64,000 bases of DNA from the NCBI RefSeq assembly GCF_023101665.1, contig NZ_CP082161.1, positions 6,572,001-6,636,000 of the forward strand, written 5' to 3'. The DNA is from Bradyrhizobium sp. 195. Lineage in GTDB: Bacteria; Pseudomonadota; Alphaproteobacteria; Rhizobiales; Xanthobacteraceae. The translations under genes and the position numbers were made by a program. The notes below the pieces were generated by a model that searched no databases, was not told the DNA's origin, and saw only the letters and a list, made by a program, of their open reading frames with translations. Below are positions 8,566 through 44,035 of the stretch, piece by piece. Each line of letters starts with the position of its first letter. Position 1 is the stretch's first letter.

Positions 8566-8702
8566 GTAGGGTGGTAAAGCGAAGCGTGCCCCCGCACCGG
8601 GTGACACAAGGAAGATGGTGAGCACGGCGCGAAGAGCACCGTGCCTACGATCTCCTGGGTTGGAGAGAGGTGGTGGGCACGCTTGCGCTTTCCCCACCCT
8701 AC
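8566..8702. repeat. Palindromic intergenic repeat, family C (GTAGGGTGG...CCACCCTAC), long copy
   Basis: Outer arms GTAGGGTGG and CCCCACCCTAC with an inner GCGTGCC/GGCACGC pair. The unit is 137 bp, longer than its relatives at 10552, 17062 and 43930. It ends CCCACCCTACGG, the half-site combination recognised by the IS110 bridge RNA described at 17 kb. Confidence 0.8.
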
Positions 8703-8720
8703 GGGACCGTTTGCTCGGCT

Positions 8721-10571: not shown

Positions 10572-10636
10572 CGCCGTGCCCACGATTTCTCTCCACGTGA
10601 GACGGGCGTGGGCACGCTTCGCTTTGCCCACCCTAC
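10552..10636. repeat. Palindromic intergenic repeat, family C
   Basis: Starts GGTGGGCAAAGGCGCC and ends CTTTGCCCACCCTAC, with an inner CGTGCCCACG/CGTGGGCACG pair. It overlaps the end of the DUF2809 gene. The terminal GCCCACCCTACG is an intact version of the site into which the IS110 element inserted at 17150. Confidence 0.85.
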
Positions 10637-10666
10637 GAGACTGGATCGACCGGCTTGCCAGAGTGC

Positions 10667-17042: not shown

Positions 17043-17061
17043 TGCGCCTGGGCGTGCTCTC

Positions 17062-17150
17062 GTAGGGTGGGCAAAGCGAAAGCGTGCCCACCACCTCTCT
17101 CAAACGGAAACAGATCGTGGGCACGGCGCATGCGCGCCTTTGCCCACCCT
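17062..17150. repeat. Palindromic repeat family C, interrupted by IS110
   Basis: Starts GTAGGGTGGGCAAAGCG and runs to TTTGCCCACCCT, where family members normally continue ACG. The missing ACGG is found at 18321-18324, immediately after the IS110 element. This establishes the insertion point and the CT core. Confidence 0.9.
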
Positions 17151-17357
17151 TGTAATAGCGCGATCGTTTATTCTCGACCCGTTCCATGAGGAATGGCCTG
17201 CCGCGGTTTGCACCCCGCGACAGGCCGCTGGCGATCGGATCGAGCCCACCCAGAGCAGTTTGTGGCTGCCCCGTAGCGTGATCGCGTCAGCACCTTCATC
17301 GGACCCGGATGGTTGCCGGAACAACTTGGTTCGCTTCACAAGGCAGGGTCGACGAAG
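17151..17357 (+). ncRNA. IS110 bridge RNA (seekRNA), both guide loops readable
   Basis: A 5' stem-loop is formed by 17196-17206 with 17215-17225. The target loop is closed by 17227-17236 pairing with 17280-17291 (GCTGGCGATC and GATCGC..CAGC). In it, GCCCACCC (17244-17251) equals the left target plus the first core base. CCGTAG (17271-17276) is the complement of the core and right target, CTACGG. The donor loop is closed by 17294-17306 with 17346-17357. In it, ATGGTTGC (17309-17316) equals the right end of the element, and ACAAG (17338-17342) is the complement of core plus left end, CTTGT. This is the IS621 arrangement. Exact RNA ends are inferred. Confidence 0.85.
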
Positions 17358-18305
17358 ATGACACAGACTAACATAACGACGGCCGGGATCGATACGTCCA
17401 AGGCTAAACTGGACATCGCGGTTCATGGTCGAACCGAACGCTGGCAGGTCGCCAATGCTTTACCGGGTTGGCGCGCTCTGGCAGCAAACCTGGCCAAGGC
17501 CGGCGTCACGCGGATCGGGATCGAGGCCACTGGCGGCTATGAACGTGGCGTGGTGGAGCATTTGCGATCGGCCGGTTTTACCGTGCTGTTGCTGCAGCCG
17601 CTTCAGGTCAAGGCCTTCGCCAAGGTCCATTTGCGCCGGGCCAAGAACGATGCGCTCGACGCCGTATTGATCGCCGCCTGTGCTGCGGCGCTCGATCCCC
17701 CTGAGATCGCGCCGGATCCGCGATTGACGGAATTGGCCGACTATCTGACCTTCCTTGAGCAGATCGAGGAAGATATCCGGCGCTTCAAGACGCGTCTCGA
17801 GCACATCGACGAGCCTGCGTTGCGACGCATCGTCAACAGCGACATCGCCCGGTTGAAGGCACGCAAGGCCGCGCAGATTCGTGACATTGCCAAGCGCCTT
17901 CGTGCCCACGACGCCCTAGCCATGCGGCTCAAGCTGGTGCTGAGCATTCCCGGCATCGGCGAGCGGACGGCGCTGGCGATCGTCATCCGCATGCCCGAAC
18001 TCGGACGCGTCAGCCGGGAGCAAGCCGCAGCCCTGGCCGGGCTGGCTCCCTTCGATTCCGACAGCGGACAGCACAGAGGACAGCGCAAGATCGCCGGAGG
18101 CCGCAGCCGCCTACGGCGCTCCCTGTTCGCCGCGGCCCTTCCAGCTGCCTTCCGCTGGAACAAGGCCTTGATCGCGCTCTATGCACGCCTCATGGCAAGG
18201 GGCAAAGTCCACAACGCAGCACTAATCGCCTGCGCCAGGAAACTCCTGATCTACGCCAATACTGTCGTACAACGCGGCACGCCCTGGACCGAAAAAGTCG
18301 CCTAG
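17358..18305 (+). CDS. IS110-family transposase (DEDD recombinase)
   Basis: 315 residues from the ATG at 17358. The N-terminal RuvC-like DEDD domain shows Asp 12 in GIDTSKAKLDIA, Glu in GIEATGGYE and the Asp pair in KNDALDA. The C-terminal Transposase_20 domain has PGIGERTALAI and the APFDSDSGQHRGQRKI segment that holds the catalytic serine of the family. It recombines circular donor and target DNA under guidance of the bridge RNA encoded just upstream. A longer in-frame start at 17313 would lie inside the donor loop and is rejected. The gene appears intact. Confidence 0.95.
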   Translation: MTQTNITTAGIDTSKAKLDIAVHGRTERWQVANALPGWRALAANLAKAGVTRIGIEATGGYERGVVEHLRSAGFTVLLLQPLQVKAFAKVHLRRAKNDALDAVLIAACAAALDPPEIAPDPRLTELADYLTFLEQIEEDIRRFKTRLEHIDEPALRRIVNSDIARLKARKAAQIRDIAKRLRAHDALAMRLKLVLSIPGIGERTALAIVIRMPELGRVSREQAAALAGLAPFDSDSGQHRGQRKIAGGRSRLRRSLFAAALPAAFRWNKALIALYARLMARGKVHNAALIACARKLLIYANTVVQRGTPWTEKVA

Positions 18306-18338
18306 CCTTTAATGGTTGCTACGGCACCTGTGTCGGCG

Positions 18339-43733: not shown

Positions 43734-43929
43734 TGAAGTACCTCGTCCTGTCGCAAGAGATCACGGGGATACCATAGCATCGGCCGGGCCCCCGCCAAGG
43801 GCACAACACGCGCGATGGGGGAGGCGTTCCTTGGGTAGGTGGCTGCAGCGAAAGCCCCGATCTCCCAGAGAAGCGTCATGAGGCGGCAGCATCGCGATGC
43901 TCCAATGCACATCCGGACACGCAGTGCCG

Positions 43930-44018
43930 TAGGGTGGGCAAAGCGGAGCGTGCCCACGTATCTTTCGCGGTCGAGAGAGATCGTGGGCACGGCGCAAGAG
44001 CGCCTTTGCCCACCCTAC
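43930..44018. repeat. Palindromic intergenic repeat, family C
   Basis: GTAGGGTGGGCAAAGCGGAG at the left and CTTTGCCCACCCTAC at the right, with an inner GCGTGCCCACG and CGTGGGCACGGC pair. It is the best intact match to the element split by IS110 at 17150. Confidence 0.88.
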
Positions 44019-44035
44019 GATATCTGCAGGTCCCG

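Follow-up and report, generated by a model that had tools for sequence, protein, structure and literature searches.

Bridge RNAs, the insertion of IS110 elements into REPs and retargeting in nature have all been published (PMC11208160, PMC1525189, PMC11187229), and the system that most resembles the locus described here is IS621 of E. coli. This IS110-group element has a CT core and a 177-nt RNA encoded in its left end, in which the target-binding loop precedes the donor-binding loop and the left guides measure 8-9 nt and the right guides 4-7 nt; its promoter spans the joined element ends, its recombinase combines DEDD residues with a serine, and it inserts into REP sequences at CT-AC within the target ATCAGGCCTAC (PMC11208160). 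In the same study, Durrant et al. examined ncRNA-target pairs in their thousands (PMC11208160), and a handshake scheme of four bases has been described for IS621, with covariation reported for two positions, 81 with donor position 7 and 166 with target position 7 (PMC11208158). Natural retargeting through a change of guide bases has already been described for the seekRNA elements ISEc21/ISMch6 (IS110) and ISEc11/ISXne4 (IS1111) (PMC11187229). Other IS110-family elements, namely ISPpu9, ISPpu10, ISPa11 and ISRm19, reside in REPs in 7/7, 7/7, 6/6 and 4/4 copies, respectively (PMC1525189, Table 2), and differ from the element reported here in their genera and REPs. IS110 elements are known to be common in Bradyrhizobium, with copy counts, given without a target, for soybean bradyrhizobia (PMC10127595). 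Bradyrhizobium REPs tagged with GTAG have likewise been described, as has cleavage of the GTAG motif by an E. coli RAYT (PMC3733652).

The window analysed here, a 64,000-nucleotide stretch of the Bradyrhizobium sp. 195 genome, contains a 1170-bp insertion sequence with the core CT (17151 to 18320, one core copy counted; this and the features below lie on the + strand unless noted) that is, with a probability of roughly 0.93, a Bradyrhizobium IS110-group element moving by bridge-RNA-guided recombination. The left core (17149 to 17150) was delimited from the copies in the same genome, the junction matches and the empty site in relatives, and the right core (18319 to 18320) from the copies and the junction matches. 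The genome carries five copies, four of which, the window copy included, are identical, and one has two substitutions. Contigs attributed to Bradyrhizobium sp. Rc3b, B. lablabi and B. sacchari carry near relatives. Between a non-coding left end of 207 bp (17151 to 17357), which holds the predicted bridge RNA, and a right end of 13 bp (18306 to 18318) with the terminal ATGGTTG lies a gene for a recombinase of 315 amino acids (17358 to 18305). Domain search of this protein produced hits to PF01548 (9.6e-22) and PF02371 (1.3e-17), and its relatives in the PDB are ISCro4 (9t56; 1.5e-25), the best-scoring solved relative, compared through the PDB row and the alignment only, and IS621 (5e-23). Alignment to IS621, whose catalytic residues were taken from PMC11208158, gave, read by eye, D12, E56, D98 and D101 as the DEDD residues and S236 as the serine. 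An N-terminal DEDD RuvC domain is combined with a C-terminal Transposase_20 domain with a conserved serine (residues by eye), a long non-coding left end with a short right end, and insertion at a short core with no target duplication beyond it, as seen from the empty orthologous sites; the long, RNA-holding right end of the IS1111 group, whose members carry subterminal inverted repeats of 7-17 bp, is absent, the right end here being 13 bp. The element belongs to the IS110 group and is a new example of an already described kind, differing from IS621 in its host, in its GCCCACC guide for a Bradyrhizobium REP, in the 13-bp right end and in the protein, which is only distantly alike (5e-23). Among relatives with 50-55% identity, the located right end spans 217-265 bp. 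TTA/TAA occur on either side of the joined ends (by eye only), a candidate for the 2-3 bp subterminal inverted repeat characteristic of IS110 elements. An Rfam search of the whole window at the gathering score returned no matches.

The insertion target is a GTAG-tagged REP pair (17061 to 17148, no strand assigned), the first arm of which starts with CGTAGGGTGGGC (17061 to 17072) and the second arm of which ends with CGCCTTTGCCCACC at 17148 and resumes as CT ACG at 18319 to 18323. The palindromic repeat begins with GTAG and the insertion point lies at its end, where CTAC, the core together with the AC that follows it, is complementary to the GTAG foot. The IS621 target ATCAGGCCTAC is built on the same geometry (PMC11208160). 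The pattern GCCCACCCTACG has 248 exact sites in the genome (120 + 128) versus one for the reversed pattern, and among the matches listed the repeat sites often form inverted pairs about 80 bp apart. One Y1 transposase gene was found in the genome, and copies of the repeat flank it on both sides within a 3.3-kb stretch, an arrangement known as a REPtron. The window also holds repeat ends at 43928 to 44019 (an inverted pair), 10626 to 10637 (a single exact site) and 8692 to 8703 (a site with one mismatch). The possibility raised in the preliminary description that copies with the same guides would lie in unrelated flanks was not borne out, all five copies in the genome sharing the target CGCCTTTGCCCACC-CT-ACG. 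A preference for one arm of the repeat was considered and rejected: the five own copies all sit in CCTTTGCCCACC, but the 52 copies in GCCCACC are distributed over CCTTT (32), GCTTT (19) and GTTTT (1).

Sequence flanking the element on its right is matched, often only partially, in 113 of 117 genomes of the genus, and 20 loci were fetched, one of which is the locus itself. The gene on the left flank is present in all 19 other orthologous loci, and in nine of these the repeat runs uninterrupted through GCCCACCCT followed by AC (by eye); the rest comprise one variant repeat, six diverged repeats and three loci without a repeat in the 130 bases read. Relatives with 52-54% identical proteins are inserted in the orthologous repeat pair in two genomes, in G055 (L116) in the same arm as the window element and in G017 (L107) in the other arm and the opposite orientation. 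Given that these two insertions and that of the window element are separate events, the repeat pair has been struck at least three times and is a recurrent landing site.

Four segments of the left end match the junctions of the element in the order of IS621, as the preliminary description had proposed, and each string occurs once in 17151 to 17357 and fits the real junctions. The left target guide GCCCACCC (17244 to 17251) equals the left target plus the C of the core, and the right target guide CCGTAG (17271 to 17276) is the complement of the core plus the right target (CTACGG). The left donor guide ATGGTTGC (17309 to 17316) equals the right end plus the C of the core, and the right donor guide ACAAG (17338 to 17342) is the complement of the core plus the left end (CTTGT). 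The right-target match had been given as six bases, of which the five of CTACG are common to all five own copies and the sixth (G) is present in only three. At mock junctions, placed at the 3280 CT dinucleotides that the window has outside the element, single matches arose at rates of 0.9% for the 8-mer, 7.2% for the 6-mer and 26% for the 5-mer, so that 7.4e-8 ordered quadruple matches are expected by chance if independence is assumed. Furthermore, both handshake pairs for which covariation has been reported in IS621 can form here: C17277 could pair with donor position 7 (G18318) and G17343 with target position 7 (C17148), while the remaining two handshake positions comprise one G-T wobble and one C-C mismatch. 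Among the relatives, the donor ATGGTTG is nearly invariant and the donor guides hardly vary, the single variant (G086) matching its guide in part. Likewise, the GTAG of the right target guide is invariant in the 22 aligned left ends and almost the whole of its target is equally constant, which leaves no covariation to be read there.

With the ends of the element joined, the sequence reads TTGCTT, 17 bases and TATTCT, a pattern that would constitute a promoter in which the predicted -10 box (17169 to 17174) lies 17 bases from a -35 box present only in the joined state, half of the latter being supplied by the TTG of the right end (18316 to 18318). All 23 near elements have TAnnnT at the -10 distance, and the six distant elements printed all lack it there. 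If the 5' end is placed at 17181, seven bases beyond the -10 box from which it was chosen, the predicted bridge RNA spans 17181 to 17357 and, at 177 nt, equals the IS621 RNA in length (PMC11208160). It would consist of 5' stem-loops (17181 to 17226), with compensatory changes in 8 of the 12 pairs of the long helix; a target-binding loop (17227 to 17291) with an outer stem of 5 + 5 pairs, drawn from the consensus fold and covariation; and a donor-binding loop (17294 to 17357) that appears in both the consensus and the transcript folds.

The preliminary description had both loops closed by stems of about 10 pairs, which agrees with the 5 + 5 pairs of the target loop in the consensus and with the 11 pairs of the donor loop in the transcript fold, and fails for the donor loop in the consensus, where it has 5. 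It had also proposed folding the entire left end. The minimum-energy fold of 17151 to 17357 (z -0.77, matched or bettered by 49 of 200 shuffles) recovers the 5' stem-loop and the target stem, and in it the 3' strand of the donor stem pairs with the leader, so the closed donor stem is absent. The outcome that the preliminary description had named as refuting, a minimum-energy fold lacking both internal loops, thus occurred in part for this interval. The fold of the 177-nt transcript has three domains, retains both outer stems and leaves the guides partly paired (z -0.84, 41 of 200 shuffles). Because the fold energies are no better than those of shuffles, we dropped thermodynamic stability as support, and the structure rests on stem covariation. 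Over the 40 pairs counted in 22 of the 23 left ends (that of G024 was left out for a run of N), for a structure partly set by hand, 97.9% of the cells are paired and 11 pairs are changed on both sides, and none of 500 shuffles was as high on either measure. The count of further pair types did not exceed that of shuffles, 479 of 500 being at least as high. Sliding the stems by 1 to 3 columns drops the pairing to 25-51%. The compensatory changes fall mostly in the 5' stem, and none affects both sides in the donor outer stem. Consensus folding favours base pairs between GCTG and the right guide's GTAG, which are invariant and offer no covariation to read, and in the single-sequence folds the inner loops are only partly open.

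The most informative check is whether changes in the guides track changes in the flanks, as had been suggested at the outset, and among the relatives they do. The near set comprises 23 elements with 78 copies, and a broader set of 36 elements, 13 of them distant, covers 16 target classes; the copies of the relatives were sampled in part, with 120 stretches fetched besides the loci given by the search (e.g., 8 of 10 copies in G047). Of 53 copies with guides of the GCCCACC type, 52 sit in GCCCACC and one in the same repeat one C short. The 24 copies with ACCCATC guides are found in ACCCATC (18), ACCCACC (5) and GGTCATC (1), and none is in GCCCACC; the ACCCACC target could be read by the ACCCATC guide through a G-U wobble. 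The sole CGCCGCC guide belongs to a copy in a CGCCGCC target. If targets were chosen blindly among the exact unoccupied repeats, the probability that none of the 24 copies with ACCCATC guides would fall in GCCCACC is about 10^-18 (copies taken as independent), and the corresponding joint probability for the GCCCACC guides is 10^-5.5 over 52 copies (independence assumed, the copy one base short scored as a match and L127 omitted). GCCCACC repeats outnumber ACCCATC repeats in four of the six genomes with ACCCATC guides. The proposal that guides track whichever repeat is commonest in the host was discarded, given that G101 has 53 exact GCCCACC sites versus 13 ACCCATC sites and yet harbours ACCCATC guides. 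To the right of the core, AC is present in 76 of the 77 copies with a located right end, 69 of them reading ACG; right ends were found by the known end motif, and L194 is the one copy among the 78 without a located right end.

Across the 36 elements and 16 classes, the summed best match of each target anywhere in the left end gave an own-guide score of 106 versus 93.1 +- 2.6 for shuffled assignments, and 1 of 100,000 permutations was as high; the target of each element was the per-column consensus of its copies, and the tie between the two copies of G075 fell on the odd copy. In the underlying matrix, a foreign left end outscores the own one in 9 of 16 rows, the better one in the row of the window element (G121) being aimed at the same repeat. 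On the transposase tree, the guide type changes six times, with at least five changes forced by starred branches, and the observed target shifts in the same way as the guide in five of five independent tree pairs (p 0.0625, the minimum possible for five pairs). The seekRNA elements offer a precedent for retargeting, from which the present case differs in that two REP families have been exchanged for one another at least five times inside one element group.

Several copies stand apart. L086 (G075) has the guide TACCCATC and the right flank ACG and is located in GGTCATC, reflecting either an off-target insertion or a later change. In L097 (G023a), the left target guide is TGCCACCC and the copy sits in TGCCCACC; perhaps the guide was altered after insertion. 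L127, on a contig that is labelled as a Luteimonas MAG and is probably misbinned, is 85% identical and lies in a GCCCACC repeat of the Bradyrhizobium type. The copy L066 (G066, Bradyrhizobium sp. Rc3b), 94% identical, no longer has its left junction and, by inspection, is a remnant. The table of 23 elements and 78 copies omits G066, which lacks its left junction, G110, where the contig ends, the partial G014, G079, G111 and L132, additional incomplete copies in G093, G113 and G017, and both G194 and G522, for which the left-end pattern was either not found or not tried. From G194, one copy out of four was read separately by eye, as was a copy on a Defluviicoccus plasmid, and their guides and targets match at only about 5 of 7 positions. 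A class-wide draw of 385 genomes contained, besides the own genome, two with hits at E <= 1e-50, both about 39-41% identical. In the distant IS110 elements L179-L181 (G118), L182-L187 (G004, G010) and L245-L253 (G909), the left ends hold strings resembling the targets of these same elements (TCATCC, TGGGTCC and TCGTCC), and to the eye these targets resemble segments of palindromes tagged with CGTC, as though separate lineages had adopted different REP superfamilies.

These counts bear on the alternative that REP hairpins or the GTAG foot are recognised directly by the recombinase and that the guide-like matches are relics of captured flanks. REP targeting was once treated as a property of the transposase (PMC1525189), and the near-universal CT-AC (76 of 77 copies) speaks for such recognition; yet in a relative whose protein is 86% identical, the REP family targeted differs together with two bases of the guide, and in G055, where unoccupied ACCCATC sites are more numerous than GCCCACC sites (11 vs 7), six of the six fetched copies nevertheless occupy GCCCACC, matching the guide. 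We therefore regard recognition by the protein as very improbable. Still less credit can be given to the view that the left-end RNA merely regulates expression of the recombinase in the manner of the ISPpu9 small RNAs, for which regulatory RNAs reported in the IS110 family provide a precedent (PMC8450116; mentioned in PMC11208160), because covariation of RNA and target across 16 classes is unexplained by regulation. Chance matches within GC-rich sequence would account for lone 5- and 6-base matches, which are frequent (26% and 7%), but not for an ordered quadruple with an expectation of 7.4e-8 or for guide-target covariation among relatives, and can be set aside as exceedingly improbable.

Collectively, the protein, the layout, the core, the ends, the empty site, the predicted junction promoter, the RNA length and the covariation of guide and target agree in supporting the IS621-type bridge RNA advanced in the preliminary description. 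Under bridge-RNA-guided recombination on the model of IS621, excision would join the ends of the element into a circle and create the promoter (TTGCTT, 17 bases, TATTCT), from which the 177-nt RNA would be transcribed out of the left end. The first loop of this RNA would pair with both strands of the REP, GCCCACC on one side and the core plus AC(G) on the other, and the second loop with the joined element ends; the recombinase would then cut beside the CT core and, by strand exchange, insert the circle into the REP at that point. The left guide would in this way read the stem of one REP family and the right guide CTAC, the complement of the GTAG foot.

Among the literature matches listed, in a search whose scope left out subscription papers, preprints and ISfinder, we found no description of this element, no report of repeated switching between two REP families, and neither a link of bridge RNA to RAYT nor a mention that the core plus the right guide coincides with the RAYT foot. 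It is possible, although we consider it rather doubtful, that these elements are REP-specialised IS110 parasites, in which a fixed, GTAG-reading right guide is directed at the tetranucleotide cut by the RAYT and a swappable, stem-reading left guide has moved from one REP family to another on at least five occasions. Insertion parts the stem from the foot and, on this proposal, should remove the REP from the reach of the RAYT, such that the two mobile systems would be rivals for a single site of four letters.

If this proposal is true, IS110 targeting and the RAYT/REP system would be linked, a connection that is testable. The small protein of 315 amino acids and the 13-bp right end make the element a compact candidate for programmable recombination. 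One orthologous locus has been seen empty, occupied by the window element and, separately, by two relatives, and the repeated switches of the left guide amount to a natural experiment on the importance of individual guide positions and wobbles. The family offers, in a genus of nitrogen fixers, a natural code of guides and targets that can be read.
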